DNA of 64,000 bases, taken from positions 494,501 through 558,500 of the forward strand of contig NZ_CP031188.1 in assembly GCF_003344925.1 (NCBI RefSeq), read 5' to 3'. The notes beneath the pieces are model-generated. The model had not been told where the DNA came from. It ran no database searches and saw nothing but the letters and a program-made list of their open reading frames with translations. Source of the stretch: Flavobacterium arcticum. GTDB lineage: Bacteria > Bacteroidota > Bacteroidia > Flavobacteriales > Flavobacteriaceae. The position numbers and the translations under genes are program-made. Below are positions 39,349-56,365 of the stretch, piece by piece (positions within the stretch are counted from its first letter, which is position 1; every line of letters starts with the position of its first letter).

Positions 39349-41724
39349 CTATTTATTTCGTCCTAAAATTTTGTCTAGTAACGATCGGTTTTTAACCTCA
39401 GGTCCATAACCGTAACCATAGCCATAACCGTAGCCATAACCATAACCGTAGCCATAACCACTTTTTTGGTTAGTATCATTCAGTAATATTGCCATATTTG
39501 GTAATTTCTTATCTTCGTATAGTCTTTCAGGTATTGTAAGCATTTGCTTATCTAAATAGCCATCTCTCGCGACATATACTACTGAATGTGCATATTTAGC
39601 AATAATAAGTGTATCAGTAACTAAGCTTACTGGAGCAGTATCTACAATTATGTAATCATATTCTGATTTCAATCTATTAAATAACTCTCCAATTTTTGAA
39701 CTCATAAGTAATTCAGCAGGATTAGGTGGTATAATACCTGGAGGTAATACATCAAAGTTATCAAACCCTGTTTGCTTAACAATATAACTTTCAAGAGTAG
39801 TACCAGTAGTAGAGATATAGTTACTCAACCCTTTTGAAGGCAAATCAATATATTCATCTAATTTAGGGTTTCTAATATCCATACCTATTAGCATAACTTT
39901 CTTTCCTGACAACGCAATAGTTGTAGCCAGATTTACAGATATAAATGTTTTCCCCTCCTTTGGTACTGTAGATGTTACAAATATAGTTTTTGCAACACCT
40001 TCGGGTACTTGACTTAACATAAACTCAAGGTTAGTCCTTACTATTCTTAAGGATTCTGCCGTACTAGATCTACTATTAAGGCTTATCAACTCATTACTAG
40101 ACTCAGTTCTTGGAACATCACCCAAAAAGGGTACAGGTAAATGTTTAAGATCGCGATAACCATGTAATTTAGTATCTAAAAGGTCTCGTAAATATATTAT
40201 ACTAAATGGGATAATAAGACCTACTAAAATTGCTGTTATATATATTAATCTTCTCTTAGGAGATACTGGCACATCTGAAGATAAGGCAGGATCTATTATT
40301 TTAGCGTTATAAGTAGTAGATGCAAGTGATATTGCTGTCTCTTCTCTCTTTTGTAATAAATATACAAAAATAGCTTCCTTTAAATTTTGTTGACGTGAAA
40401 TTGATTTATACTCTCTTTCTTGAGTAGGTATCTCTGCAATTTTACCTAACACTTTTCTTTGTTGTAAGTTAAGGTCTTGCTTCCTTATTTGGAGTGTATT
40501 ATTAAGTCTATCTAAGTTAGCTACTATGTTCTCTTTAAGCGCTGTAAGTTGAACATTTATATTAATAAGTTGCTTATTTTCTTCAGTAGCCCCTAATTTT
40601 ATCTTATTTTTTCGAAGCATCAATGTATTATACTCGTCTATTAGCGATGATGCCGATGTAGCATCTACCGCAGTTGGAGCTAATATATTAGCCGGAATAA
40701 GATCTGTATTAGATGATTCTAGGACATTCTCTTTTAATGATTTAACGATGCGCAATTGAGTTTCGGTTTCTATAAAACTTTTTTCGAACTCTGATGCATT
40801 TTGAAGAAAAAGACTTCCCTCAGAAACTATATCTGTAAGCCCTTTATCTTTTTTATATTGTTCGCCCTCCTCTTCTACATCACCTAACTCATCCATTATA
40901 AGCTCAATACGGCGATTGATAAACTCAGCTGTGTTTTTAAAAACCTCGCCTTTATCTCGCTTAGCATCTTCATTATAATTAGCTATTACAGTATTTAAGA
41001 AATCCTCGGCTCTGATTTTTACAGGATCTACAATTGATAATTGTACAACACTGGTTCTATCTACAAGTTTTACATTAAGCTTACTTTTATAACTCTGCGT
41101 TACGCTAAGTATAGGAGATATAGAAAAGTTTATATCAAAACCTGAATTATCTGAGTCTTGATTAAGTATTGTAAAATCTCCATTTTTATGTTTTACAACC
41201 TGTCCGAATTTATATGTCCCCAATTTATTGTCTTCAGCATCAAAAAGGGTATAATTATTATCTCCTTTATATAATACTCTAAATTTAGAGCTATTAGTAA
41301 TAAGATCTTCATCAGAAAGAACAACTTTTATAGGTGATTTTTTATATAAATCGACAGCTTTAACTGTTCCTTTTCTTATATAACGTACATTTAGGTCAAG
41401 ATCTCTTACAGCTGACTCTATAATTGTTCGAGATTTTATAATTTCAATTTCATTATCAACAGTACTTTTAACACCCCCCATCATGTCCATCTCGCTCAAA
41501 GAAGCAAGATCAGAAACCATCCCTCCTTTTTTATCATCTTTTACCATAATTGTAGCAGATGCACTATATTTAGGAACACTATATCGTAAATAAAGAAAAG
41601 CTAGTAAGAAAAATGATAGTACACCAATTAAAAACCAAGGCCATTTTCGTAGATATCTAAAAAAAGTCTCCTTAAGATTAAAACCTGAATCTAAATCTTC
41701 TTTATAATTATTATCTTGTTGCAT
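39349..41724 (-). CDS. wzc: Polysaccharide co-polymerase / tyrosine autokinase (Wzc type)
   Basis: A 791-residue inner membrane protein controlling polymer length and export. The Wzz-type domain starts with helix 1 (about 31-50, WPWFLIGVLSFFLLAFLYL) and a long periplasmic coiled coil, and ends at helix 2 (about 490-510, PKRRLIYITAILVGLIIPF). The cytoplasmic BY-kinase domain has Walker A (VTSTVPKEGKTFISVNLA), Walker A' (LIGMDIRNPKLDEY) and Walker B (YIIVDTAPVSLVTDT). The C-terminal Tyr cluster, the autophosphorylation site, is a run of nine Gly-Tyr pairs made by an 18-bp DNA repeat. It is 8 nt after the Wza-like gene. Confidence 0.93.
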   Translation of the reverse strand: MQQDNNYKEDLDSGFNLKETFFRYLRKWPWFLIGVLSFFLLAFLYLRYSVPKYSASATIMVKDDKKGGMVSDLASLSEMDMMGGVKSTVDNEIEIIKSRTIIESAVRDLDLNVRYIRKGTVKAVDLYKKSPIKVVLSDEDLITNSSKFRVLYKGDNNYTLFDAEDNKLGTYKFGQVVKHKNGDFTILNQDSDNSGFDINFSISPILSVTQSYKSKLNVKLVDRTSVVQLSIVDPVKIRAEDFLNTVIANYNEDAKRDKGEVFKNTAEFINRRIELIMDELGDVEEEGEQYKKDKGLTDIVSEGSLFLQNASEFEKSFIETETQLRIVKSLKENVLESSNTDLIPANILAPTAVDATSASSLIDEYNTLMLRKNKIKLGATEENKQLININVQLTALKENIVANLDRLNNTLQIRKQDLNLQQRKVLGKIAEIPTQEREYKSISRQQNLKEAIFVYLLQKREETAISLASTTYNAKIIDPALSSDVPVSPKRRLIYITAILVGLIIPFSIIYLRDLLDTKLHGYRDLKHLPVPFLGDVPRTESSNELISLNSRSSTAESLRIVRTNLEFMLSQVPEGVAKTIFVTSTVPKEGKTFISVNLATTIALSGKKVMLIGMDIRNPKLDEYIDLPSKGLSNYISTTGTTLESYIVKQTGFDNFDVLPPGIIPPNPAELLMSSKIGELFNRLKSEYDYIIVDTAPVSLVTDTLIIAKYAHSVVYVARDGYLDKQMLTIPERLYEDKKLPNMAILLNDTNQKSGYGYGYGYGYGYGYGYGYGPEVKNRSLLDKILGRNK
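39406..39459 (-). repeat. Three 18-bp tandem units in the Tyr tail of wzc
   Basis: Read on the minus strand, units 39459-39442 and 39441-39424 are identical (GGTTATGGCTACGGTTAT). The third (39423-39406) differs at two third-codon positions. Each encodes GYGYGY, giving nine tyrosines. All gains or losses of a unit keep the frame. Confidence 0.9.
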
Positions 41725-41732
41725 TTATATTA

Positions 41733-42509
41733 TTATCTTGTGCTTAAAGCAATTATAGTAACAAGTAATGAAACTGCAGATATAGCAACCGTTAGGTTAG
41801 GTCCTATCACAGATGAGTTTACTCTTGTTTTATTAGGTTTTACATATACCACATCATTATGGTTTAAGTAATAAAAAGGGCTATCAATAATAGTAGAATC
41901 TGTAATATCAACTGTATTTATTGATTTTACTCCATTATCTTCCCTTATAACAACTACTTCTTTTCGTTTTCCATATATAGTCATATCTCCTGCCATGCTT
42001 AAGGCTTCAAGAATTGTAATTCTATCTCCATCAACTTTAACAGAACCAGGCGCAGCAACCTCTCCTATAACAGAAACTTTAAAGTTTATAACTCGTAAAT
42101 TTACAACTGGATTAGTAAGCTGTTTTTCTAATAACTTTTTAATGCTCGCTTCTGCTTCTATACGTGTTAATCCAGATAATTTTATTTTTCCGATACCTGC
42201 AAAATCAACATATCCGTCCTGATCTATCAAATAACTAGTTAATGCATCATTGTTATTAACATTAGTCATTTGGTTACTTTGTATATTAAGGTAAACAAGA
42301 TTAAATGGTGCGGCAAGCGATGGCTCATCAGCAGTAACCATAACCATAACTTTGTCATCTGGCTGTAAAACATTAGCATACTTTAATGTATCGTCTTCAT
42401 TTCTATTTTCTGTACCTGACGTATTATTAAAATAAATAATTTTCTTGTTAGATACACACGAACTAAACACAAGTAATATAGTAAGAAAAACTATTGCTTT
42501 TTTTATCAT
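41733..42509 (-). CDS. wza: Polysaccharide export outer membrane lipoprotein (Wza-like)
   Basis: A 258-residue lipoprotein that forms the export channel or periplasmic ring for the polysaccharide. The signal peptide and lipobox (LLVFSSC) follow the ATG at 42509. The Poly_export domain (LQPDDKVMVMVTADEPSLAAPF, YLIDQDGYVDFAGIGKIKLSG) leads into an SLBB domain (VSVIGEVAAPGSVKVDGDRI). A C-terminal hydrophobic helix (about 233-255) anchors it. This is the short Bacteroidota form, about 120 residues shorter than E. coli Wza. It is paired with wzc. Confidence 0.9.
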   Translation of the reverse strand: MIKKAIVFLTILLVFSSCVSNKKIIYFNNTSGTENRNEDDTLKYANVLQPDDKVMVMVTADEPSLAAPFNLVYLNIQSNQMTNVNNNDALTSYLIDQDGYVDFAGIGKIKLSGLTRIEAEASIKKLLEKQLTNPVVNLRVINFKVSVIGEVAAPGSVKVDGDRITILEALSMAGDMTIYGKRKEVVVIREDNGVKSINTVDITDSTIIDSPFYYLNHNDVVYVKPNKTRVNSSVIGPNLTVAISAVSLLVTIIALSTR

Positions 42510-42566
42510 GAAAAATCTTATTGAACATTTAGGCACTTAACCTATAAATAAGTAAGAATATTTGGG

Positions 42567-42617: not shown

Positions 42618-44570
42618 TTAGTCTACTGTACTCTTATCCAACGATTGAAAGCTTGAGTTCATACTCTTAAACTCTGGGACAATTTCTTTCATCTTAGATA
42701 CAACTTCTATACCTGAGTATCCTGATGCACATTGCACTAAATCATTAGTAAGATCTTCTAAACGAGAAAAATCATCATATACTTCCTGTGCAATCATTAT
42801 TTTTTCGTGATGAGTGGGTAGTGTCTTAGATGTGTCATTAAGTAACTCTTCATAAAGCTTCTCACCTGGTCTAAGCCCTACAATCTTTATCATTATATCT
42901 TTATCTGGTATAAAACCAGCGAGTCTAATCATTTTCTTAGCAAGATCTATAATTTTTACTGGCTTGCCCATATCAAAAATATAAATTTCGCCTCCTTTAC
43001 CCATAGCCCCCGCCTCTAGTACAAGTTGGCAAGCTTCAGGTATGGTCATAAAGTATCTTATAATATCGGGATGTGTAAGCGTTATAGGACCTCCATTTTC
43101 TATCTGTTTAGTAAATAAAGGCACAACAGACCCGTTAGAACCTAATACATTACCAAAACGTGTAGTGATAAATTTTGTATCACTCTTACCTTCTGCAAGT
43201 AATTTATTATGTAGCGCTTGTACATATTTTTCAGCTATTCTTTTACTTGCTCCCATTACATTACTAGGGTTAACAGCCTTATCAGTAGATACCATTACAA
43301 AACTATCAACATTATATTTACAAGCAAGATCTGCTACATTTTTAGTCCCTAAAACATTTACAAATATAGCCTGAGACGGATTGCCTTCCATAAGCGGAAC
43401 ATGTTTGTATGCTGCCGCATGGTAAACTACATCTGGTTTATAGGTCTTGAAAACCTCATCAAGCTCAGCGCTATTCTTAACATCTCCAATTATAGGAACT
43501 AATTTTGTTTTAGCTTCAATTTTACATATTTCAAGACCAAGGTGATGTAATGGTGTTTCGGCTTGATCTAGCATAATAACGCATTGCGGATTAAACTGAA
43601 TTACCTGTCGTACAATTTCACTACCTATAGAACCTGCAGCACCTGTTATCAATACCTTTTTACCTTTCAATTGGTTAGATATAGAATTGTTATCAAGCAC
43701 AATAGGCTTTCGCTCTAATAAATCCTGAATTTGGAAATTCTTTATTTTTTTTGATATTTCTTTTTGATCTTCCCAATCAGAAACCAAAGGAACAGTATAT
43801 ACCTTATAGTTAAACTCAAGGCACTCATCTACAATAGCTAGCTTTTCATCTTTAGTTAGACTTTTATCTGCAATGATAAGCGCTTGTGCCCCAAAGACAC
43901 GCATAAGAGTAGATGTCTTTTTTTTATGTTGAAGAATAGGCAGCCCTAAAATCATTTTTGATTTATTTTGACTGTATTTATCAATAAAACCTACTAATTT
44001 AAACCTTCCGGGAACCTCTGACTTTAAAGCGTTTGCTACAGCAATGGCATTAGCATCAGTACCATAAATAATTGCTTTGGCAAGGTGTTGTTTCTTAGTT
44101 TGATTTAAATAATTTTCGAAGAATTGCTTTATTAAAACCCTGTATAGGAAAAGGCTAGCAAAAGAAAAAACAGCATTAATAAGTATTCCTATGTTTAGGA
44201 ACAGTAAATCGTCAGTAAGTGATTTATAAACACTATTAAAAGCAAGCAATAGAAATGCTGCAGTAAATTGTGAAAAAAATATTTTTACAGCATCTATATA
44301 AGATGAATGCCTAATAATACCTGAGTAAGTTCTAAAAACACGAAATGTAACAAAGCTGATAAATAAGTAGACAGGAATACTTACAATATATAACTTAGGA
44401 TTAATATATAACACCCCAGTTCTATGTATTAAAACATATGATAGAATACCTGTAACTGTAATAACAAATAAATCTATTACAAGAATAATCCATCTTGGCA
44501 AATAGCCTAAATTATCAAAAACCTTCCAGACCCCTGTATTATTAAATGCACTATCAACAGCATTAAACAT
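42618..44570 (-). CDS. CapD/PglF-type UDP-sugar 4,6-dehydratase with membrane domain
   Basis: A 650-residue inner membrane enzyme that converts UDP-GlcNAc to a UDP-4-keto-6-deoxy sugar, the first step to bacillosamine, QuiNAc or FucNAc. Four membrane helices (about 28-145) precede a CoA-binding-like domain (about 162-270) and the NAD-dependent SDR domain (from about 303: VLITGAAGSIGSEIVRQ). The catalytic STDKAVNPSNVMGASKRIAEKY region has Met in place of the usual Tyr (MxxxK), the hallmark of the WbpM/PglF group. The start is ATG 44570 or GTG 44594. The next step would be the aminotransferase encoded just upstream. Confidence 0.9.
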   Translation of the reverse strand: MFNAVDSAFNNTGVWKVFDNLGYLPRWIILVIDLFVITVTGILSYVLIHRTGVLYINPKLYIVSIPVYLFISFVTFRVFRTYSGIIRHSSYIDAVKIFFSQFTAAFLLLAFNSVYKSLTDDLLFLNIGILINAVFSFASLFLYRVLIKQFFENYLNQTKKQHLAKAIIYGTDANAIAVANALKSEVPGRFKLVGFIDKYSQNKSKMILGLPILQHKKKTSTLMRVFGAQALIIADKSLTKDEKLAIVDECLEFNYKVYTVPLVSDWEDQKEISKKIKNFQIQDLLERKPIVLDNNSISNQLKGKKVLITGAAGSIGSEIVRQVIQFNPQCVIMLDQAETPLHHLGLEICKIEAKTKLVPIIGDVKNSAELDEVFKTYKPDVVYHAAAYKHVPLMEGNPSQAIFVNVLGTKNVADLACKYNVDSFVMVSTDKAVNPSNVMGASKRIAEKYVQALHNKLLAEGKSDTKFITTRFGNVLGSNGSVVPLFTKQIENGGPITLTHPDIIRYFMTIPEACQLVLEAGAMGKGGEIYIFDMGKPVKIIDLAKKMIRLAGFIPDKDIMIKIVGLRPGEKLYEELLNDTSKTLPTHHEKIMIAQEVYDDFSRLEDLTNDLVQCASGYSGIEVVSKMKEIVPEFKSMNSSFQSLDKSTVD

Positions 44571-44674
44571 ATTTTTTTTAAACTTCTTCTCCACTACATC
44601 TTTGGTTTAACTAAGCCTATTAATTTAAAAAACATTGATAAATATATAACTTTTTAACAAAAACTCAACATTCA

Positions 44675-45811
44675 TTAAAAGAAAGATTGTATCGAATCTT
44701 TTATTCTTGTTTTATCTTCTGATGTTAAATTAGAACCCGATGGTAAACATAAACCGTCTTCGAATAGCGTTTCAGACACATTACTTCCATAGAAAGGGAA
44801 CTTCTCAAAAACAGGCTGCATATGCATCGGTTTCCATAATGGTCTAGACTCTATATTCTTACCCTCTAAACTAAGTCGTAAATCCTCTCGTGTACGACCA
44901 TTAGCTTTTTCTGGATTCACCAAAATAGCACTTAGCCAATGATTAGAAAAATAGTCTTCATTAGGTTCTTTAAAAACAGTTATAGCATCATTATCCCTAA
45001 GCAAATCAGTATAAAAATCGTTCATACTTCTTCTTTTTGCGATATGTGAGTCTAATACTTCCATTTGTCCTCGCCCAATACCCGCACATATATTACTCAT
45101 TCTATAATTGTAACCTACTTCACTGTGCTGATAATGAGGTGCATTATCTCTTGCTTGTGTAGATAAAAAAACAGCTTTATCCTTCCACTCCTTTTTAGCT
45201 GTTACAAGTGCACCACCTCCCGAAGTAGTTATAATTTTATTTCCGTTGAATGATAATACGCCAATATCGCCAAAAGTTCCACATTTTTGTCCTTTATAAG
45301 TACTTCCTAGAGCTTCGGCACTATCTTCTACAATAGGTATTTCATATTTTTGTGAAATCTTTAAAATTTCATCTGCCTTAAAAGGCATACCATATAAATG
45401 TACCGCGATAATAGCTTTGGGCTTTTTACCTTTAGCTATTCTATCTTTAATAGCATCTTCAAGAGCATCTGGGCAAATATTCCAAGTTTCAGTCTCACTG
45501 TCAACAAAAATAGGTGTAGCTCCTAAATACATTATAGGATTTGCAGAGGCTGAAAAAGTCATACTCTGGCATATAACCTCATCGCCAGGCTGTACACCTA
45601 ATAAAACTAAACTAATATGTAGTGCTGCAGTACCTGAGCTCAAAGCCCCTACATATACTTCTTTTTCAAGATAGTTTTCAATATCATTTTCAAAGCCATT
45701 AACATTAGGCCCTAATGGAGCTACCCAATTTGTATCAAAAGCCTCTTTAACATATACCTCTTCTTTACCTCCCATATGCGGAGATGAAAGCCATATTTTA
45801 CTTAATTCCAT
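44675..45811 (-). CDS. DegT/DnrJ/EryC1/StrS aminotransferase (PglE-like)
   Basis: A 378-residue PLP enzyme that transfers an amino group to C4 of the UDP-4-keto-6-deoxy sugar made by the CapD/PglF-like enzyme. The PLP lysine is Lys192 in LSFNGNKIITTSGGGAL; other family features are ALSSGTAALHISLVLLG, AVHLYGMPF and VEDSAEALGSTYKG. The length and motif order match PglE and PerA-type enzymes. It lies between the acyltransferase gene (150-nt gap with its own -7 box) and the dehydratase gene, supporting a joint pathway. Confidence 0.92.
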   Translation of the reverse strand: MELSKIWLSSPHMGGKEEVYVKEAFDTNWVAPLGPNVNGFENDIENYLEKEVYVGALSSGTAALHISLVLLGVQPGDEVICQSMTFSASANPIMYLGATPIFVDSETETWNICPDALEDAIKDRIAKGKKPKAIIAVHLYGMPFKADEILKISQKYEIPIVEDSAEALGSTYKGQKCGTFGDIGVLSFNGNKIITTSGGGALVTAKKEWKDKAVFLSTQARDNAPHYQHSEVGYNYRMSNICAGIGRGQMEVLDSHIAKRRSMNDFYTDLLRDNDAITVFKEPNEDYFSNHWLSAILVNPEKANGRTREDLRLSLEGKNIESRPLWKPMHMQPVFEKFPFYGSNVSETLFEDGLCLPSGSNLTSEDKTRIKDSIQSFF

Positions 45812-45834
45812 TTATAATGTAATTATTTTCTTTA

Positions 45835-45842
45835 CAAATGTA
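45835..45842 (-). promoter_or_regulatory. Candidate internal promoter (-7) before the aminotransferase gene
   Basis: On the minus strand TACATTTG matches TAnnTTTG perfectly, 23 nt upstream of the ATG at 45811, in the largest gap (150 nt) of the polysaccharide locus. No -33 box. A short palindrome GCAATATTATTGC also lies in this gap at 45940-45952. Confidence 0.35.
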
Positions 45843-45961
45843 GTCGAAATCCTTATGTTATTTATAAATATTTGTTTTAATATTTTATGAATATATACAG
45901 GCTTAGACTCTCTAATATTAACATTGTATTATTAATTCAGCAATATTATTGCAAGAACAAT

Positions 45962-46615
45962 CTATACTTTTGGTATAGCAAGTACTTTCTCTTTAAATCT
46001 GTGGAAATAAGTAGTATCGTCGTCTATATTACGTTCTACAACCATACCCGCAGCAATTTTATTTCTGTTACCAATAGTTATTTGAGGTATTGATGCCGAA
46101 TTGATACCGAATAAATTTTCGTCGCCAACGGTAGTAAAACCAGAAAAACAAACATTGGGACTAATAAAGTTAAAAGTACCTATTTTACTATCGTGCCCCA
46201 TACTGGCTCTTGAGTTTATTAAAGTAAAATTGCCTACAACAACATTAGGACCTATATTTACATAAGGTGCTATTACTACACCCTCTCCTATTTTAGAAGA
46301 CGGAGAAACATAAGCTAATGGATGTATAAATGTTAAAAAGTTCGCTTCTTTTTCAAGAAAATTCTCAGTTATAATTTTCCTAAACTTTAAATTAGCAATA
46401 CCCATTATATATGAGCAATTTTCATTAATTACGTGGTCTTTTATAGAACCTAAGTATGGTGCAGAGAATTTATATACCTGATAACTCGCAGCATTATCAT
46501 CAATAAAGCCTATTACTTTATATTTTACTTCACCGGTTAATGAGTTGGTATGCGTTAAATACTCATCTATTTCTGCAGCATGTCCACCAGCACCTATAAT
46601 TATTATTTGCTCCAT
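45962..46615 (-). CDS. Sugar N/O-acyltransferase (NeuD/PglD family)
   Basis: A 217-residue left-handed beta-helix enzyme that acylates a nucleotide sugar. The N-terminal nucleotide-binding part is IIIGAGGHAAEIDEYL and VIGFIDDNAAS. Hexapeptide repeats run from about residue 100 (SSKIGEGVVIAPYVNIGPNV, FTLINSRASMGHDSKIGTF), with the catalytic His in MGHDSKIG. It probably adds the acyl group to the 4-amino sugar. With an ACP, KAS III and SDR encoded directly upstream, the donor may be an acyl-ACP instead of acetyl-CoA (inference). Confidence 0.88.
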   Translation of the reverse strand: MEQIIIIGAGGHAAEIDEYLTHTNSLTGEVKYKVIGFIDDNAASYQVYKFSAPYLGSIKDHVINENCSYIMGIANLKFRKIITENFLEKEANFLTFIHPLAYVSPSSKIGEGVVIAPYVNIGPNVVVGNFTLINSRASMGHDSKIGTFNFISPNVCFSGFTTVGDENLFGINSASIPQITIGNRNKIAAGMVVERNIDDDTTYFHRFKEKVLAIPKV

Positions 46616-46644
46616 TTTATTATATTAATTAACTAAAACATCGT

Positions 46645-47421
46645 TTATTTAGCAGTATATCCTCCATCTATTTTTAAATCCACTCCTGTTATCCATCGAG
46701 AAGCCCCTGAGAGCAAAAATACAGTAGCCTGTGCAATATCTTGTGGCATACCTAATCCTAACGGGTGCAATTTTGTTACAAAATCTAATTTGTCAGAATC
46801 CTTACTATATTCTGATGACATTGACATTGGCGTTACTACTACACCTGGTGATATGGTATTAAATCGAATATTTTTAGCTGCATACTCTATAGCCATCGAT
46901 TTCGCTCCCGCTATAAGCGCACCTTTACTCATACCATATAACGATTTCCCCACTTCGCCTACTGTTCCCATTACAGAGGCTATAAACACAACACTCCCTC
47001 CTTCACTAATCATATTTGCAGGCTTACAAACTAGTTTTGTAAGGTTCATAGCAGCAATAACATTAGTAGCAAAGACTTCTTCCATTTTAGTTGTCGATGT
47101 GGTACGAAAAGGCATTGTAGGAGAAACTCCTGCACAATTTACCAAACCATTAAGTTTACCTTTCTTTGCAACTGCATCTTTAATTATATCTGCAACCGCA
47201 TCATAATTATTGATATCAATTTCATATGCCAAATGATTATCTGGCTCATGTAAAGATGACATAGTTTCGTTTAACCTTTCGGTATTACGCCCTAATAAGA
47301 TAAGCGATGCACCAAGGCCACTACATAGTATGGCTATTTGCTTGCCTATGCCCGATGTAGCACCTGTTACAACAATAGTTTTGCCTTGTAATGCAAAGGC
47401 ATTTATTTCTGATTGAATCAT
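46645..47421 (-). CDS. SDR-family 3-ketoacyl-ACP reductase-like enzyme
   Basis: A 258-residue NAD(P)-dependent short-chain dehydrogenase. The cofactor motif is VVTGATSGIGKQIAIL (GATSGIG at 20-26) and the catalytic triad Ser149, Tyr162, Lys166 (IASVMG, LYGMSKGAL). The C terminus MPQDIAQATVFLLSGASRWITG is classical FabG-like. It overlaps the KAS III gene by 4 nt (ATGA), indicating translational coupling. It probably reduces the 3-ketoacyl-ACP made by that synthase to a 3-hydroxyacyl-ACP. Confidence 0.88.
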   Translation of the reverse strand: MIQSEINAFALQGKTIVVTGATSGIGKQIAILCSGLGASLILLGRNTERLNETMSSLHEPDNHLAYEIDINNYDAVADIIKDAVAKKGKLNGLVNCAGVSPTMPFRTTSTTKMEEVFATNVIAAMNLTKLVCKPANMISEGGSVVFIASVMGTVGEVGKSLYGMSKGALIAGAKSMAIEYAAKNIRFNTISPGVVVTPMSMSSEYSKDSDKLDFVTKLHPLGLGMPQDIAQATVFLLSGASRWITGVDLKIDGGYTAK

Positions 47422-48476
47422 ATCTCTACTAAATCACTTATATAGCAATCGTTGGTTTTTATAATAGCTGAAGCCCAAGACATACCTACACCAAATCCGC
47501 AAAGAAACAGTTCTTTATCCCCTTCGAGCTTACCTTGTAACTCTGAGACTATCGTTAAGGGTATAGATACTGATGATGTATTACCAAATTTTGAAACCGA
47601 AGCAGGTACTTTTTCATCTTCCAGCTTTAGTTTCTTTTGTAAATAATCATTCATATATTTATTTGCCTGATGAAACACAAAAAAATCAGGATCTGCCGTA
47701 GTTTTCTCAGCAAATTTAAATGTCTTTTTAATGTCTTTAGGTATTTCGGCAAGCACAAAATTAAACACATCAGCACCATTCATGTATCCATGCTCATCAG
47801 AACGAATATTACCGTGCTCATCTACTACTTTTTCCGCTAATGTTTCAGGAGTACTTGGGTTACGGTAACCACCTGCATCCATTTTTATTAAAGATGATCT
47901 ACCTCCATCAGAGTTAAGTGAAAACCAGCTTTGTCCGTATTGTTCACCTTTTTCTATAAGAGCAGCAATACCACCATCGCCAAACAAGAAAGCTGTTTTT
48001 CTATCCTTAGCGCTATATACTTTAGAGCGTGTTTCGCCATCCAATAAAAGAGCTTTTCTTATACCTGATTGTTGCACAAAATTATATACTATAGACATAC
48101 CGTAAATAAAACCCGAACAGCCCAAATTTACATCAAAAGCTATTGTGTTTTTACCAAGCCCTAGTCTGTCTTGCAAAATTATTGATGTTGCAGGCATACG
48201 GTAATCTCCCGTTTGTGAAACAAAAACTACAAGGTCTATTTCCGATTTATCTATAGCTAAATCTGATATAAGTTTTTCGGCAGCATGATAACATAAATCA
48301 GATGCACAAGTGGCATCATCTGCAAACCTGCGTTCATATATTCCTGTTTTATCTACAATATCTTTTACATCTTCTGCCGGAAAATATTTGGTATATTCAT
48401 AATTATTAATAACCGTTTTAGGCACTGCTCCAGCAATACCTTTGATACCTATATTATTAAATTCCAGTAAAGCCAT
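47418..48476 (-). CDS. Ketoacyl-ACP synthase III (polysaccharide-locus paralogue)
   Basis: A 352-residue KAS III-type condensing enzyme. The triad is present: Cys120 in DVNLGCSGFIYGM, His in FVFHQANKYM and Asn in FGNTSSVSIP. It is clearly divergent from the FabH at 4365-5378. Compared with FabH it has an extended loop around EKVVDEHGNIRSDEHGY. It sits between the ACP gene (2-nt gap) and the reductase gene (4-nt overlap), so the three form one module. The acyl primer is unknown; acetyl-CoA would give acetoacetyl-ACP. Confidence 0.9.
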   Translation of the reverse strand: MALLEFNNIGIKGIAGAVPKTVINNYEYTKYFPAEDVKDIVDKTGIYERRFADDATCASDLCYHAAEKLISDLAIDKSEIDLVVFVSQTGDYRMPATSIILQDRLGLGKNTIAFDVNLGCSGFIYGMSIVYNFVQQSGIRKALLLDGETRSKVYSAKDRKTAFLFGDGGIAALIEKGEQYGQSWFSLNSDGGRSSLIKMDAGGYRNPSTPETLAEKVVDEHGNIRSDEHGYMNGADVFNFVLAEIPKDIKKTFKFAEKTTADPDFFVFHQANKYMNDYLQKKLKLEDEKVPASVSKFGNTSSVSIPLTIVSELQGKLEGDKELFLCGFGVGMSWASAIIKTNDCYISDLVEI

Positions 48477-48478
48477 AA

Positions 48479-48703
48479 TTATTTATTTTCAACTACAGCT
48501 TCGTATAAATCTTTTACTGTAATTAGTTTTTCAAATTTTGCATCTTCAATCTGCACTTCAAACTCTTCATCTAAAACTGCAATAAGTGAAAGTCTACTCA
48601 ACGAATCCCAAGTATCATAATCTCTAAAATTATCATCAAAGTTAATTTCTTGGTCTTCCATTTCTAATGCTTCCTTTAGAGCTTCAATAAATTTATTTTC
48701 CAT
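48479..48703 (-). CDS. Acyl carrier protein
   Basis: A 74-residue acidic protein with the phosphopantetheine attachment Ser34 in TWDSLSRLSLIAVLDEEF, the DSL motif of carrier proteins. The four-helix pattern and length match ACP, but the sequence departs from housekeeping AcpP around the motif (WDSL instead of ADSL). It probably carries the acyl intermediate built by the KAS III and SDR encoded directly downstream, for transfer to a sugar. Confidence 0.9.
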   Translation of the reverse strand: MENKFIEALKEALEMEDQEINFDDNFRDYDTWDSLSRLSLIAVLDEEFEVQIEDAKFEKLITVKDLYEAVVENK

Positions 48704-48722
48704 TGTTTGATTTATTTAAGTT

Positions 48723-49340
48723 TTATTCTGAATCTTTAGTTCCTGTAAAAGGTATTGTAGTAGCTACCCCTTCGGTATTTATATCGCTCCTTTTAATAAC
48801 TTTTAACACGGTTAAATATATAATTTTAATATCTAACCCCAAAGAAAGGTTATCTACATAGTGTACATCTAATTCAAATTTTTGTTCCCACGATATGGCA
48901 TTCCTGCCATTTACCTGAGCCCAACCTGTAATACCTGGCTTTACCTCATGTCTTCTGGCTTGTTTTGCATTATAAAGCGGTAGATATTTTACTAATAATG
49001 GTCTTGGCCCTACTAGGCTCATGTCTCCTTTTACTACATTAATAAGTTGTGGGAGTTCATCTAAAGATGTGGTTCTCACAAAGCTTCCTACTTTAGTAAT
49101 ACGATCGGCATCTGGTAGTAATTTACCGTCAGCACCTTTCTTGTCGTTCATGGTTTTGAACTTTATAACCTTAAATATCCTCCCTTTTTTACCTGGGCGT
49201 TCCTGAAAAAAGAAAACACTGCCTTTATTAAAAAAAGCAAGCAATATAATCAGTAACAATAGAACTGGCGACAGTAGAAGAAGCACTATAAATGCTATAA
49301 GAAAATCTGATAAAGGTTTTAAAAATCCTGAATACAACAT
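48723..49340 (-). CDS. Undecaprenyl-phosphate sugar phosphotransferase (PglC-like initiating transferase)
   Basis: A 205-residue monotopic inner membrane enzyme that transfers a sugar-1-phosphate from its UDP-sugar to undecaprenyl phosphate and starts the repeat unit. The N-terminal re-entrant helix (about 12-35) is followed by FFFQERPGKKGRIFKVIKFK, TTSLDELPQLINVVKGDMSL (with the DE catalytic pair), VGPRPLLVKYLPLY and PGITGWAQVNGRNAISW. The short form, without the WbaP/WcaJ membrane domain, fits PglC, whose natural substrate is a diacylated bacillosamine. Its stop/start overlaps the upstream glycosyltransferase gene by 1 nt. Confidence 0.92.
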   Translation of the reverse strand: MLYSGFLKPLSDFLIAFIVLLLLSPVLLLLIILLAFFNKGSVFFFQERPGKKGRIFKVIKFKTMNDKKGADGKLLPDADRITKVGSFVRTTSLDELPQLINVVKGDMSLVGPRPLLVKYLPLYNAKQARRHEVKPGITGWAQVNGRNAISWEQKFELDVHYVDNLSLGLDIKIIYLTVLKVIKRSDINTEGVATTIPFTGTKDSE

Positions 49341-50461
49341 TATAGAAACTTTTTATATATTAATTTCATTTCTTCGAGGCAATTAGCCAACTCAAATTTT
49401 TCTGCTTTTATCTTTGCGTTTTCCGACATTGTCTTACAAAGTTCTTTATTTTTATACAAGTCTGTAATTTGATTTACAAATTCTTGATGATCACCTCTAT
49501 TAAATAAAAATCCACTTTCTCCATGATTTATCAAATCTACATGACCTCTTATCTTTGTAGCAACTACTGGTTTCTTAGCAAACATTTCTTCGGCTACATT
49601 CATAGGTAAGCCCTCTTGTCTACTTACAGAAACTCCAATATCTGACATTATTATAAGTTCGCCAATATCTTTTCTAAATCCTAAAAAATCAACATTATCA
49701 GTTAATCCTTGATTGGTTGCCATCTCTTCCATTTCATCTTTCAATATACCACGACCTGCAAAAACAAACTTAAAATTGTTTATTTTCTCTTTTAACAAAG
49801 GTATTGCTTCAAGAATAAATTTATGGTCTTTTCTGGTTATGAATTCTGCAATATATATTATTAAAAATGTGTCTTTATCATAACCGTTCTTCTCGCGGAT
49901 AGCATCTCCCCCATCTAAAGACAAACCTTTAAACTTTTGAGAGTTTATACCTACCCCAGCTGTTTTAAAAGCATTTACTGCTTTAAATTTATTATTAACA
50001 ACAACATTATAGTCCTCTTCATTTATAGTTATAAGGCCATCTGTATACTTAGCAAGATACTTCTCCATAGGATAATATATGTTCCAGTATAACTTCGGAG
50101 AACCTTTATAAAAATGGAAGCCATGTGCTGTATATAACACTTTTAACATGCCCTTTTTTCTAATTTTTTTTGCTGCAAGCCTTGCCACTACAGAGCCCAT
50201 AGCGGTGTGACAGTGTATAAGGCTATACTTCTCTATGGCTATTATCTCTTTTAACTGCTTTGTAGCCTTTATGTTATTATTAGAAAAAGGATTACGATTT
50301 ATAGGTAAATTATATTGTTTGTCTGCCTCAGGAATCTTAGTGTCAGGATCATTTGCAGCAACATGCACCTCATAACCTTCACTTTTTAAATACTCTATGT
50401 AAGGAATATGAAAAGCCCTAAAGTGCTTATGTATGTTAGCTACAAATAAAACTTTTTTCAT
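49340..50461 (-). CDS. Glycosyltransferase family 4
   Basis: A 373-residue GT-B enzyme extending the repeat unit. The N-terminal Rossmann half starts MKKVLFVANIHKHFRAFHIP, with the active-site region TAHGFHFYKGSPKLYW. The C-terminal donor-binding half has ITRKDHKFILEAI, FLGFRKDIGELIIMSDIGVS and the EX7E-like SRQEGLPMNVAEEMF. Similar to PglA/WcaA-type enzymes that follow PglC. Its start overlaps the stop of the pyruvyl transferase gene by 1 nt. Confidence 0.9.
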   Translation of the reverse strand: MKKVLFVANIHKHFRAFHIPYIEYLKSEGYEVHVAANDPDTKIPEADKQYNLPINRNPFSNNNIKATKQLKEIIAIEKYSLIHCHTAMGSVVARLAAKKIRKKGMLKVLYTAHGFHFYKGSPKLYWNIYYPMEKYLAKYTDGLITINEEDYNVVVNNKFKAVNAFKTAGVGINSQKFKGLSLDGGDAIREKNGYDKDTFLIIYIAEFITRKDHKFILEAIPLLKEKINNFKFVFAGRGILKDEMEEMATNQGLTDNVDFLGFRKDIGELIIMSDIGVSVSRQEGLPMNVAEEMFAKKPVVATKIRGHVDLINHGESGFLFNRGDHQEFVNQITDLYKNKELCKTMSENAKIKAEKFELANCLEEMKLIYKKFL

Positions 50462-51801
50462 TAGAATATTTCTTTTAAGTTCTTTACAAGATCTTCTCTT
50501 TCTTTAACCAACTTTACCTGGTACTGAGTTATCTTTTCAAGATAATCTTCTCTCTCAATCTCAAGTTTTTCAACCATTTCATTCAGTTTATCTGATGATA
50601 CTGCCTCTATACCTAATACAAAATCTGGAACGCCTATATCGCGCATAATACCGTAGCTCTTATTACCACCATAAGCAATAGCTAATGAAGGTGTTTTTTC
50701 GTTTAATGCAAATATCACTGAATGAAACCTTGTACCTACCAGTATGTCATAATAGGAATACATCTTTTGCATTTGACGTGAGTTAAGTCCAAAATCTTCT
50801 AGATAAATTACATTTTTCTTTACATCTTCACTAATAGCATTATATACATCTTTTAATGCTAATCTATCATCTTCATGAGCGCTTGGCCCTAAGGTATGCG
50901 CTACCAAACTTATATTGTACCCTCTATTTACCTGAGTACCTATAAACTTAGCTATTTCATTAAGATAGTTTGCATAAAGTTCATCAGCATTAGCATATCC
51001 GTCAAAACGATAAGGTCTTAATGTAATTGCTATATTTTTTTTGGTTTTATCAAAACCTCTTTCTGCTAAATAGCCTTCAAAATCATCATCTGATCCTTTT
51101 AGGAAAAAACCTAAATCAGGCACAGTAGGTACATCCATATTTAGCTCTGTCTTCAAGAATTTTTTAGAGACATCTTCACGAACTGATATATATGATGACT
51201 TTGCTATAACGCGTTTAACTAAACGCTTTGCTAGGCTATTTTTTAATGGACCTATAGAATTAGGTAATATTATTGTTTTTACTTTATAGCGGTGTGCCAA
51301 CATTAAATCGAACAAAAAGTAATACATTACATAAGCGTCGTAGATCTTACCGTAGCTATGTAAGAAACCTCCACCCTTTACTACAAGTGCCGATAGTTGA
51401 GGAAATAATTCTAAAGACTTTTTCTGTTCTTTTGATAATGTTGATTTCCCTATCTTATTGAAAAGCGAAAAACGAGACGATAGCATTAATGTACTAATAA
51501 GGTCAGTAATAGCATTAAAGCCCCATTTTACATATACAAATTTGCTATATTTTATCTCTTTAGTTGTACTTTTTCCTTTAACACGAGGGTGTTGTAATAT
51601 CCTTGGTATAAACTCATAGCCTAAACCTAATGACTGCCCTTTTTGGAGCATTTTCTCTTCTTCATTGGCTCCTGATTCGTATAAATAAACCTGCAGGTTA
51701 GGCAATACATCCTCAAAAACCCTTATTGATTCCCAAACTAGTGCCTGATCTCCTCTATTTAAATCTGTATTACCTGGAACAACTAAAATTTTATTTTTCA
51801 T
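50461..51801 (-). CDS. Polysaccharide pyruvyl transferase family protein
   Basis: A 446-residue GT-B-like enzyme that adds a pyruvate ketal from phosphoenolpyruvate to a polysaccharide sugar (family knowledge: CsaB, WcaK and AmsJ). The N terminus has VVPGNTDLNRGDQALVWESI. Central segments ALVVKGGGFLHSYG and TIILPNSIGPLKNSLAKRLV and the C-terminal DILVGTRFHSVIFALNEKTP with AIAYGGNKSYG are diagnostic. ATG at 51801 is preferred over the TTG at 51804. It overlaps the neighbouring glycosyltransferase gene by 11 nt. The target sugar cannot be named. Confidence 0.88.
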   Translation of the reverse strand: MKNKILVVPGNTDLNRGDQALVWESIRVFEDVLPNLQVYLYESGANEEEKMLQKGQSLGLGYEFIPRILQHPRVKGKSTTKEIKYSKFVYVKWGFNAITDLISTLMLSSRFSLFNKIGKSTLSKEQKKSLELFPQLSALVVKGGGFLHSYGKIYDAYVMYYFLFDLMLAHRYKVKTIILPNSIGPLKNSLAKRLVKRVIAKSSYISVREDVSKKFLKTELNMDVPTVPDLGFFLKGSDDDFEGYLAERGFDKTKKNIAITLRPYRFDGYANADELYANYLNEIAKFIGTQVNRGYNISLVAHTLGPSAHEDDRLALKDVYNAISEDVKKNVIYLEDFGLNSRQMQKMYSYYDILVGTRFHSVIFALNEKTPSLAIAYGGNKSYGIMRDIGVPDFVLGIEAVSSDKLNEMVEKLEIEREDYLEKITQYQVKLVKEREDLVKNLKEIF

Positions 51802-52951
51802 CAATACTATTTAAGAATTTATCAAAAAATGCTTTTCTTCTAATCTCTAGATTTTCAAAACTATATTCTTTTGCTAATTTATAGTTTTTCTTACTCTGAG
51901 AAATAAGAGTGTCTTTATCTAAAATATCTTTAATCTTATTCGTTAAATCTATAACATCTTTTTTCTTAAAAATAGCACTATCATCTAAAAGCTCAGGTAT
52001 TCCAGCAACATTAGATCCTATAGCAGCACACCCTCTACTCATTGCTTCTATTAAAGCTCGAGGTAAACCCTCTGCATCACTAGGTTGAATGTATAAATCC
52101 GTTTTTTCTAAAATTCCAAAGATTTTTTCATGAGGTATTTTACCTGGAAAAGTGACTCTATCTTCAAGACCAAGTGTTTTTGCCATATTAAGAAGCCGGG
52201 TATTATCGCCGCCGCCTACAATGTTATAATGAACATTATATCCTTCTTTAACCAAGGTTACCATAGCCTCTAAAACATATTGATGCCCTTTATGAACAAG
52301 GTTAACCCCTCCAAGAGTCGTAAATGTTATCTTTTTATCTTTACTAAAATTTTCATAATAACCATCTTTATGGTATTCTTCAGGAAGATCCCTCAAAATA
52401 ACATCCGAAATGCCTGCTGATTCATACTTTGAAGGATAACGACCTTGCAAAAAGAACTTAGTAACATATAATGCGAATGGAGCTTCTGCAACCAGTTTTT
52501 TTAATTTATTTCTTGAAAATGGAGCATATAATTTTCCTAAAAGTCCATGATTTCTTAATGTATCCCATGGACATACTACAACCTCTACAAGATATGGCTT
52601 ATTTATTTTCTTTGCATGTGCTACAGCTACAGACCCAATTGTACTTGGTAGCCTAACAACAAGCATATCTGCCGACTCTACATTGCGTATAATTTCTTTT
52701 TTACTTTTAAAATAATTTTTTAACAAACTAGGTCTATTAAATGGCACTATTTCATTAACATACAAACCTATATTATTAAGATTAAGTAAACTTGAAGTAT
52801 CGTCTGTTTTAAAAACACGCATTACAAATTCAACTTTATCACCAAGATAAAGATATCTATTATACATATCAGCATCTGTACCAGTTCCGTATTGTGTTCC
52901 TTCAGAGTCCTTCCAACGAGGACCGTCATGAATAAATAAAACTTTTTTCAT
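51791..52951 (-). CDS. Glycosyltransferase family 4
   Basis: A 386-residue GT-B enzyme. The N-terminal part (KKVLFIHDGPRWKDSEGTQY) is unusual; the donor half is standard: FTTLGGVNLVHKGHQYVLEA, FPGKIPHEKIFGILEKTDLY and the EX7E region QPSDAEGLPRALIEAMSRGC. It likely adds one sugar of the repeat; donor unknown. It overlaps the pyruvyl transferase start by 11 nt and follows another GT4 gene by 11 nt. Confidence 0.9.
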   Translation of the reverse strand: MKKVLFIHDGPRWKDSEGTQYGTGTDADMYNRYLYLGDKVEFVMRVFKTDDTSSLLNLNNIGLYVNEIVPFNRPSLLKNYFKSKKEIIRNVESADMLVVRLPSTIGSVAVAHAKKINKPYLVEVVVCPWDTLRNHGLLGKLYAPFSRNKLKKLVAEAPFALYVTKFFLQGRYPSKYESAGISDVILRDLPEEYHKDGYYENFSKDKKITFTTLGGVNLVHKGHQYVLEAMVTLVKEGYNVHYNIVGGGDNTRLLNMAKTLGLEDRVTFPGKIPHEKIFGILEKTDLYIQPSDAEGLPRALIEAMSRGCAAIGSNVAGIPELLDDSAIFKKKDVIDLTNKIKDILDKDTLISQSKKNYKLAKEYSFENLEIRRKAFFDKFLNSIDEK

Positions 52952-54078: not shown

Positions 54079-55233
54079 TTATATTGAAATATAGTAATCG
54101 ACAAGTTTATTAATCTTATCTGACATTAAAAAATCATTTGTTTTATGCTGTTTAGACTTTTGCCCCATTGTTACCCTCAGCCTATCGTCTTTTATCAGCA
54201 ATTCAAGTTTAGTAGCAAGTTCATGAACATCTCCTACAGGAAAAAGCATTCCTGTTTCGTTATCAATAATAACTTCAGGTATCCCCCCTACATTTGACCC
54301 TATTGCTGGAACACCTGCAAACCCTGATTCAATAATAGAGTTAGATAAACTCTCTGATCTAGATGGTTGTACAAAAATATCCATAGCAGGTAATACCTCA
54401 GGAACATTATTAATAATACCAAAGTTCTTAACTAACTGATCTAAACCATATAATTCAATTTTAGATTCAATTTGAACCGTAACTTCGCTCCCCTCCATAA
54501 GCCCTATTAAACAGAGTATAAACTGTTTTTCTATTCCCTTCTTATTAAGCTCGTGTACAGCATCTATTAAAATATCTATACCTTTAGTTTTTGAAGCAAA
54601 GGCAATACAACATATATAAACTACATCAGACTTAAAACCAAGTTTAGATCGTGAAGCCTCTTTATCAAATGAGTTTATTTTCCCTCCATTATATAGTACT
54701 TCAAATTTATGCGCATGATTAGGATAAATTTCAGTATATTGTTTATTTACAGCATTAGACACTGAAAAAAAACGTGTTGTAAACATATTTATAAGAGCTC
54801 TATATACTCTAGTTGATTTTTTTAGCTGATTTTTATATTGTGCTTCTTTAATATCTTTATCTACAAGCATAAGTCGAACATTATTCCACCGGTGTTTACA
54901 GCCAAACAAATAACCATATAAACTTGGGAATAAAGGCTGAAAATGAGAGTGTATAATAATAGGCTTATGAGTTCTTACAATTCTATAAAAAGCCTTAAAA
55001 AAAGCTACAGTACTTAATGCATTAGCTATATAATATTTAATATTATTATCTTCAAGCTGCTTTAAAAACTCAACTGATTTTGGTTTTTGATTATAAACAA
55101 CGACAATTTTAATCCCTTTTGGTGCTCCAGCTTTTGAAAGGTCTAATATATAACGCTCTAAACCTCCAAATTTTTTAGAGTCGTACCCCATTACATGTAC
55201 AACTGTCCTTATTGGATTTTGTTTCTTATCCAT
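54079..55233 (-). CDS. Glycosyltransferase family 4
   Basis: A 384-residue GT-B enzyme. The N terminus holds the GGLERYILDLSKAGAPKGIK acceptor-side pattern. The donor half has CCIAFASKTKGIDILIDAVH, FGIINNVPEVLPAMDIFVQP and SRSESLSNSIIESGFAGVPA with the acidic pair of the EX7E motif. It overlaps the upstream deacetylase-like gene by 8 nt. Several basic stretches in the N-terminal half suggest membrane association. Confidence 0.9.
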   Translation of the reverse strand: MDKKQNPIRTVVHVMGYDSKKFGGLERYILDLSKAGAPKGIKIVVVYNQKPKSVEFLKQLEDNNIKYYIANALSTVAFFKAFYRIVRTHKPIIIHSHFQPLFPSLYGYLFGCKHRWNNVRLMLVDKDIKEAQYKNQLKKSTRVYRALINMFTTRFFSVSNAVNKQYTEIYPNHAHKFEVLYNGGKINSFDKEASRSKLGFKSDVVYICCIAFASKTKGIDILIDAVHELNKKGIEKQFILCLIGLMEGSEVTVQIESKIELYGLDQLVKNFGIINNVPEVLPAMDIFVQPSRSESLSNSIIESGFAGVPAIGSNVGGIPEVIIDNETGMLFPVGDVHELATKLELLIKDDRLRVTMGQKSKQHKTNDFLMSDKINKLVDYYISI

Positions 55234-56365
55234 CCTTTTTTGTGTTTATAATTTTGGCAAGCTGATCTGATGACATAAACTCTACATCAGGCCATAATTG
55301 CACTATTTTTTTCAATAAAGCATTAAGCATAATAAGGTTATCTGTACGATTTTGCTCATCAATATATCCTATGAAATTCAATCTGTGAGAAGATATAATT
55401 GCTGGTGTTTTATTTGCAAAGGCTACTTCTATTCTTTCTATACAATCATTAACAGTATCTATATTCTGTTTCAAAGTAGGTTCAAAAAAGGTGTTTCTCA
55501 CTAGAAAAACTTGCTTATGCTGGTTTATTTTCCCTGTATAGTTATATCTTTTAGTATGTTTTTCACCATTAAGGCGTGGTTCTTTTTGTATTGGTAATCC
55601 TTGAAGCGACATTACTCCGTTTTCCTGAAGTATTTTTTCAATTTCACGATTCCAAAAATAACCTGTCCCTATAAAAGAAGTAGCCTTATAACCTATTATA
55701 TCTTCAAATAATTTTAATCCAGACGGGATAGCTGAAAACATACTTTTCCTTTCATGCTCATTACTAGGGTAAAAAGCAGTATTGTATATCTTACTATTAT
55801 CTAAAAATGCATCTTTAGAAAGATTGAAACATTCTAAATCGAATGCAAGTTGTAATTTTTTATTTTTTCCTTCCTTTAACTCATTTAACCAAAGTTGAGC
55901 ATTAAGGTGCTCACGTCCGTGAAACTGTGGTATAAAAATTTTTTGATTAATTCCTTCTTTCCACAAATTAAAAGAATTAGTATGTTTTGGATATCTTTTT
56001 AAAGTCTCTGTAAAAGGTTCATAATGATATTCTTTAAAACCCGACTCTTTTATTTTTTTAAAGTCAGGGTTTGCTACATTTGTATTGGCGGTAATTACAG
56101 GCGGATTACCATTACTGTCTTTATATTTTAATAGCACCTCGAAAAGCGCTTCTAAATCCTGCTCGCTGGCAAGGCTATCATATCTTGAGTAAGGGTTTGT
56201 ATTTACTTTAATATCATTCTTAAGTAAAGTTTCATAAGCTTCTTTAGAGGGCATAGAAATACCACCCCAGTCATCGCTTTCTATTACAATAATTTTTCGA
56301 TCGGTTTTCCAACCTAGAATATTAACTATTTTTCGTCCTATAATAGACTTTACCCTTCCTATCAT
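55226..56365 (-). CDS. Deacetylase-fold protein, tandem copy 2 (unknown activity)
   Basis: A 379-residue cytoplasmic-looking protein (no signal peptide) that is a clear paralogue of the adjacent 367-residue protein. Shared blocks are RKIIVIESDDWGGISMPS, NPDFKKIKESGFKEYHYEPF, FIPQFHGREHLNAQLW, PAIISSHRLNFIGYID and WPDVEFMSSDQLAKII. ESDDWG resembles motif 1 of NodB-type polysaccharide deacetylases (Asp pair), and FHGREH and SHR supply possible metal His. I infer a divergent carbohydrate deacetylase that may act on lipid-linked or nucleotide sugars inside the cell. The first metal Asp differs slightly from copy 1. Confidence 0.65.
   Translation of the reverse strand: MIGRVKSIIGRKIVNILGWKTDRKIIVIESDDWGGISMPSKEAYETLLKNDIKVNTNPYSRYDSLASEQDLEALFEVLLKYKDSNGNPPVITANTNVANPDFKKIKESGFKEYHYEPFTETLKRYPKHTNSFNLWKEGINQKIFIPQFHGREHLNAQLWLNELKEGKNKKLQLAFDLECFNLSKDAFLDNSKIYNTAFYPSNEHERKSMFSAIPSGLKLFEDIIGYKATSFIGTGYFWNREIEKILQENGVMSLQGLPIQKEPRLNGEKHTKRYNYTGKINQHKQVFLVRNTFFEPTLKQNIDTVNDCIERIEVAFANKTPAIISSHRLNFIGYIDEQNRTDNLIMLNALLKKIVQLWPDVEFMSSDQLAKIINTKKDG

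Follow-up and report, generated by a model that had tools for sequence, protein, structure and literature searches.

A single-synthase acyl carrier protein module in a bacillosamine-type gene set of Flavobacterium arcticum, predicted to supply a 3-hydroxyacyl group

Described systems and the cassette of the window

In Flavobacterium psychrophilum, a 3,5-dihydroxyhexanoyl group on Qui2NAc4N (2-acetamido-4-amino-4,6-dideoxyglucose) was identified by nuclear magnetic resonance (Cisar et al. 2019, PMC6519341). The route proposed there is fatty-acid-like, of type II: wfpC and wfpE for two ketoacyl synthases, wfpD for an acyl carrier protein (ACP), wfpF for a reductase, wfpG for the transfer from this dedicated ACP and wfpB for the loading of the sugar. 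Strains differing in such genes differ in the antigenicity of their lipopolysaccharide (PMC6519341). The present work deals with a cassette of seven consecutive minus-strand genes of Flavobacterium arcticum, in which a bacillosamine-type pathway is combined with an ACP, a single beta-ketoacyl-ACP synthase III (KAS III) and a short-chain dehydrogenase/reductase (SDR). It lies in the window, i.e., the whole stretch of 64,000 nucleotides that was analysed (positions 494,501-558,500 of the 2.97 Mb single-contig genome). It is probable that the cassette makes a 3-hydroxyacyl-ACP in a single round, most likely 3-hydroxybutyryl-ACP, and that the acyl group is moved to the 4-amino group of uridine diphosphate (UDP)-QuiNAc4N before a PglC-like enzyme loads the sugar.

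The second precedent comes from Pseudomonas syringae. Yamamoto et al. (2011, PMC3927599) describe a gene set for N-(3-hydroxybutyryl) viosamine that comprises an ACP and an acyltransferase besides one KAS III and a reductase, and the modified sugar is lost when vioR is deleted. Both precedents were named in the first-pass annotation of the window, and both are in print. Related sugars are known from O-antigens: QuiNAc4N with (S)-3-hydroxybutanoyl in Plesiomonas, chemically the sugar predicted for the window locus, and, in Vibrio cholerae O3, bacillosamine with a dihydroxyhexanoyl group (PMC3210612). Acyl-module terms were not found in the excerpts of PMC5601056.

With wfpB-wfpG and pglE/pglF of F. 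psychrophilum, a member of the same genus, the window shares a PglC homologue, an ACP, a KAS, a ketoreductase, a PglD homologue, PglE and PglF. It differs by its single KAS, whereas F. psychrophilum has two (wfpC, wfpE) and the 3,5-dihydroxyhexanoyl product. The wfp genes are known here by their published description; their lettering would fit the gene order of two loci with two KAS genes, L156 and L157 (PglC, KAS of clade B, ACP, KAS of clade A, SDR, acyltransferase), in which the acyltransferase tail reads G-N-P-A-K. With the viosamine island of P. syringae (vioA/B/R/S/acp/M/T) the window shares one KAS III, an ACP, a reductase, an acyltransferase and, by prediction, an N-(3-hydroxybutyryl) 4-amino sugar. 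However, the viosamine is dTDP-linked (deoxythymidine diphosphate) and decorates flagellin, where it occupies the distal end of the glycan, unlike the first-sugar role proposed here, and VioS (338 aa) is by its length nearer to KAS clade B than to clade A, the clade of the window. Neither Pseudomonas nor Flavobacterium was represented in the 38 records tallied from a plasmid search (E 1e-40). The reading of the first-pass annotation, an ACP/KAS/reductase module feeding a PglD-like enzyme on a bacillosamine pathway, is thus still the best one, but it is not novel, being anticipated for F. psychrophilum. Concept and chemistry are both already in print; what is new is the single-KAS form and a class of acyltransferases with an R-x-K-E motif in the tail.

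All seven open reading frames (ORFs) announced by the first-pass annotation are open at the coordinates it gave, and the catalytic residues it named in the ACP (Ser34), KAS III (Cys120), SDR (Ser149/Tyr162/Lys166) and aminotransferase (Lys192) are all present; His269 and Asn299 of the KAS III and His141 of the acyltransferase come in addition. Recomputation returned the same 2-nt gap between the ACP and KAS III genes and the same 4-nt overlap between the KAS III and SDR genes. The other spacings are 19 nt (PglC-ACP), 29 nt (SDR-acyltransferase), 150 nt (acyltransferase-DegT), 80 nt (DegT-PglF) and 81 nt (PglF-Wza). From PglC to PglF, the Pfam families are Bac_transf, PP-binding, ACP_syn_III, adh_short_C2, PglD_N plus hexapeptide, DegT_DnrJ_EryC1 and Polysacc_synt_2.

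The order PglC-ACP-KAS-SDR-acyltransferase-DegT-PglF-Wza is shared by five other genomes (L004, L005, L149, L151 and L003, the last apparently the same contig as L150), and the gene order is therefore not due to chance. Three further loci (L152-L154) have the same order with two extra ORFs inserted before DegT, and L155 is rearranged. A KAS with at least 67% identity to that of the window is found in 8 of the 299 genomes of the genus, its own included, the next matches listed having at most 48%.

The PglC-, PglE- and PglF-like assignments of the first-pass annotation agree with the nearest solved relatives. The transferase is nearer to the PglC structure than to WbaP (6e-33), the nearest solved relative of the dehydratase is PglF/WlaL, and the aminotransferase matches PglE and, near-equally, another aminotransferase structure, 1o61 (5e-96; the other values are in Table 1). 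Because of these relationships, the sugar nucleotide is very likely UDP-2-acetamido-4-amino-4,6-dideoxyglucose, a prediction drawn from homology.

The acyltransferase tail and the number of KAS genes

C. jejuni PglD and Psychrobacter Pcryo_0637 (PMC8040287) share with the window acyltransferase the fold, the catalytic His and the predicted UDP-sugar acceptor. Both use acetyl-coenzyme A (CoA), and in such PglD relatives the proline of a C-terminal G-x-P loop turns cis upon CoA binding; Pcryo_0637 has an Asn-cis-Pro turn, whereas the window enzyme has RFKE at this place (H205-R-F-K-E209, in general form [HYF]-R-[FY]-K-E). The PglD assignment of the first-pass annotation is borne out by the fold and by His141; the altered loop is a feature absent from it. 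Since the acceptor side is kept (PglD fold, His141) while the donor-side loop is altered, the enzyme fits a donor other than free acyl-CoA. In the excerpts of open-access literature covered, no description of the R-x-K-E motif and no tested acyl-ACP sugar N-acyltransferase of the PglD family turned up.

The 158 distinct PglD-like proteins of all loci comprise 28 with R-x-K-E, 127 with G-x-P and 3 others. A KAS and an ACP are found within 5 kb on the same strand for 27 of the 28 R-x-K-E proteins; the remaining one, from a short locus, is that of the window, where both genes are present. The motif is absent from all 40 PglD-like control proteins, which were hand-picked from genomes without a detected cassette, i.e., with a best KAS III match of about 1e-45 or worse (the level of housekeeping FabH) or none. 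KAS genes were counted as same-strand ORFs of 300-420 aa no more than 5 kb away. Where the flanks reach at least 2.5 kb, exactly one KAS is present in all 26 R-x-K-E loci, while the G-x-P cassette loci (n=55) have two in 48 cases and one in 5; a further locus has three, and another has none. Near-copies from the F. johnsoniae group swell the G-x-P rows; in the thinned table, 25 proteins are RFKE with one KAS, 27 G-x-P with two or more and 5 G-x-P with one. It should be added that (i) the pattern filed one Gln-for-Arg variant (L224, at a contig end, linkage out of view) as G-x-P; (ii) in one set of relatives the loci were inspectable for 30 of 41 matches; (iii) the 120 database relatives are among the matches listed, of 1727, and the search profile included the motif.

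These counts bear first on ordinary diacetylbacillosamine synthesis, in which the acyltransferase would use acetyl-CoA and the ACP module would serve another product. The fold and the catalytic His are indeed those of acetyl-CoA enzymes. However, in the five same-order relatives the module is embedded among the bacillosamine genes, and the CoA-responsive proline loop is gone. Above all, a motif-type acyltransferase was never found without ACP and KAS where the flanks are visible (one variant being at a contig end), and for this reason diacetylbacillosamine is considered very improbable.

They bear also on chain length. The cassette KAS proteins form two clades, A (median 352 aa, including the window's own) and B (median 336 aa). 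Of the 80 loci from a contig scan, some of them clipped at contig ends, 54 have at least two KAS and 26 have one; by best match, both clades are present in 43 of the 80, and the window has A only. The KAS genes adjoining R-x-K-E enzymes fall into two well separated groups within clade A. The single KAS III of the window could act twice and give 3,5-dihydroxyhexanoyl as in F. psychrophilum, for it shares clade A with one of the two KAS of L156, whose order resembles wfp, and KAS of the window type also occur paired with another KAS (L006, L026). This is nevertheless quite unlikely: one KAS in 26/26 motif loci against two in 48/55 others looks like two product classes, and the six-carbon chain of F. 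psychrophilum goes with two KAS genes (PMC6519341). The rule of the first-pass annotation that one KAS III means one round fits both P. syringae (one KAS, 3-hydroxybutyryl) and F. psychrophilum (two KAS, six carbons), i.e., n=2 only.

Proposed pathway, its starter and the place of the reduction

From the gene content, we infer the following steps. The PglF-like dehydratase and the PglE-like aminotransferase would give UDP-2-acetamido-4-amino-4,6-dideoxyglucose. The clade-A KAS III would condense a starter, most likely acetyl, with malonyl-ACP on the cassette ACP, and the SDR would reduce the 3-keto group. The cassette contains no dehydratase or enoyl reductase acting on the chain, and the hydroxyl would therefore stay. 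The PglD-like enzyme would then pass the acyl group, most likely 3-hydroxybutyryl, directly from the ACP onto the 4-amino group, and the PglC-like enzyme would attach the completed sugar to the lipid carrier, where it would start the repeat unit. A 3-hydroxybutyryl group in place before loading, as proposed by the first-pass annotation, is still the most likely outcome, with the reservations that the starter is unreadable from the sequence and that reduction on the sugar was proposed for P. syringae.

Several observations weigh against this pathway. Concerning the tail, (i) it is modelled with a low predicted local distance difference test score (pLDDT; block means 71 and 58); (ii) the residues past the motif were trimmed from the alignment; (iii) members found later show variants, i.e., K for R (L261), Q for E (L262) and Q for R (L224); (iv) G-x-P is retained in 77 cassette-linked proteins, including those of two-KAS cassettes thought to use an ACP. 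This last point weighs most heavily against taking the motif for a simple mark of an ACP donor, an interpretation of RFKE that was rejected on that ground. When the last 24 residues are left out of the tree, two changes are required for the motif and five for the KAS number, with a single independent pair. Since the independent events are so few, the link between motif and single KAS has little statistical weight; the pattern is strong as description and weak as statistics.

The starter is a further point. Trp32 and Arg36 of E. coli FabH hold CoA. The clade-A KAS lack both, which makes an acetyl-CoA starter uncertain; among the alignment rows displayed, clades A and B are both without Trp32, and only the two FabH proteins of the host have Trp in this column. 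The Cys-His-Asn triad is kept in 163 of 166 non-housekeeping KAS rows. A read-out of the starter from the CoA residues of FabH was tried and rejected, as Trp32 is absent from both clades and thus gives no distinction between priming and extension. A starter of another kind (branched, longer or bound to an ACP) would lead to a different 3-hydroxyacyl group. In this direction points a set of sister loci (L218-L229), ten of which have a visible R-x-K-E acyltransferase together with a clade-A KAS and at least one ACP; in most of them, PglC- and PglE-like genes are remote. In both of those scanned, an adenylation protein (AMP-binding, about 505 aa) stands beside the clade-A KAS (L222:14427-15941; L218:13700-15223), which suggests ACP-bound starters there; several others have genes of similar size, judged by size alone. 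On the contrary, none of the sixteen window genes scanned with Pfam has an AMP-binding domain, and the known product of a single-KAS system is 3-hydroxybutyryl (PMC3927599). A different starter in the window is thus rather unlikely.

The last point is the place of the reduction. In P. syringae, dTDP-N-acetoacetylviosamine is named as the precursor, which puts the reduction after the transfer (PMC3927599). In the same manner, the acetoacetyl group could here be passed from the ACP to the sugar first, and the SDR could then reduce it on the UDP-sugar. The 25 NCBIfam models listed for the SDR are all of the SDR type, FabG included, and every one scores below its cut-off; the best one is named glucose 1-dehydrogenase, not FabG. 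Moreover, the SDR is missing within 5 kb in 6 of the 28 motif loci (L007, L223, L225, L226, L227, L229), so that either the reduction takes place elsewhere or some products lack it. The 4-nt overlap of the SDR and KAS III genes and the scores of the FabG-type models speak for reduction on the ACP, although neither decides the substrate. Reduction after transfer is given a low probability, and reduction on the ACP is preferred.

More broadly, and tentatively, the R-x-K-E enzymes may be a separate Bacteroidota class of sugar N-acyltransferases that has moved off CoA, with a basic tail taking the acyl group from a cognate ACP, and that is paired with single-synthase modules, either fatty-acid-like as in the window or adenylation-primed, of a mini nonribosomal peptide/polyketide synthase (NRPS/PKS) type that would act on a nucleotide sugar. 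If this is true, (i) the number of KAS genes and the acyltransferase motif would predict the N-acyl group of a surface polysaccharide from sequence; (ii) an acyl-ACP-dependent branch would exist within a family annotated as acetyltransferases; (iii) the question of the donor would be reduced to a five-residue motif.

Gene coordinates, related loci and neighbouring genes

The genes of the cassette and the two that follow it are given in Table 1. Four KAS III-type and two PP-binding (ACP-type) matches were obtained in the genome, and the cassette accounts for one of each type. The remaining three KAS III-type matches fall outside it, as do one match to the FabD family, which was reported with one stop, and one to the ACPS family.

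Table 1. Features of the cassette and of the adjoining export genes (positions in the window).
Feature	Position	Strand	Evidence or remark
PglC-like small phosphoglycosyl transferase, 205 aa	48723..49340	-	PF02397 1e-62; structure 8g1n 1.2e-70; predicted to load first sugar phosphate onto lipid carrier
Dedicated ACP, 74 aa, Ser34 (DSL)	48479..48703	-	PF00550 1.1e-10
KAS III, long clade A, 352 aa, Cys120-His269-Asn299	47418..48476	-	ACP_syn_III; without FabH Trp32 equivalent
SDR, FabG-like ketoreductase, Ser149/Tyr162/Lys166	46645..47421	-	PF13561 8.5e-53
PglD/NeuD-like left-handed beta-helix N-acyltransferase (predicted), His141	45962..46615	-	TIGR03570 156.6 bits, cut-off 160.8
Acyltransferase C-terminal tail, Phe204-Val217 plus stop, holding the [HYF]RFKE motif	45962..46006	-	codons
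PglE-like pyridoxal phosphate aminotransferase, Lys192	44675..45811	-	PF01041 1e-96; structure 4ztc 2.9e-95
PglF-like membrane UDP-GlcNAc 4,6-dehydratase	42618..44594	-	PF02719 2.4e-120; WlaL structure 5bju 8e-94
Wza-like polysaccharide export protein	41733..42536	-	label from reading the ORF alone; directly downstream also in L003-L005, L149-L151
Wzc-like chain-length/tyrosine-kinase protein	39349..41724	-	label from reading the ORF alone; downstream also in L003, L005, L149-L151

Related loci show several variations. L222 also carries a formyltransferase-like protein and L218 a GNAT protein; with their adenylation proteins, these sets are possible mini NRPS/PKS systems for sugar decoration. 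Metallo-beta-lactamase-fold proteins, possibly thioesterases, adjoin the acyltransferase at L153:7915-8553 and L266:8937-9560, and genes of similar appearance are seen in L154, L222 and L218. A Rieske/ring-hydroxylating oxygenase stands between KAS and SDR in a two-KAS cassette (L158:10642-11718), perhaps for hydroxylation of the acyl chain; L159-L161 have genes like it in size and place. At L165:7817-8797, L166:8945-9925 and L164:8568-9767, a KAS III is accompanied by a second, degenerate one with Ala or Ser in place of the active Cys, adjoining ACP, SDR and PglD-like genes; we take this arrangement to be reminiscent of a chain-length factor or of the PqsB/PqsC pair. The F. johnsoniae group has a conserved locus with ACP, KAS A, SDR, KAS B and a PglD-like gene, and no PglC-like gene in view (L013-L025, L028, L030, L034, L059, L061, L062, L064, L066, L073, L077, L080).

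The polysaccharide locus of the window contains further genes. A MurA-like/MurB-like pair (62227-63456 and 59958-60818, both minus strand) suggests a lactyl-ether, i.e., muramic-acid-like, sugar in the polysaccharide; the MurA-like protein scores 370 bits, below the MurA cut-off of 392.7, and a full-scoring MurA and a MurB match are found elsewhere in the genome. With genes of the sulfotransferase family (60831-61697) and the polysaccharide pyruvyl transferase family (50461-51804, minus strand), the polysaccharide may carry further acidic groups. Finally, two tandem proteins of 379 and 367 aa (55226-57468, minus strand) have no Pfam match; relatives of the 379-aa protein are present in 14 of 16 window-type loci, and in six they are paired.

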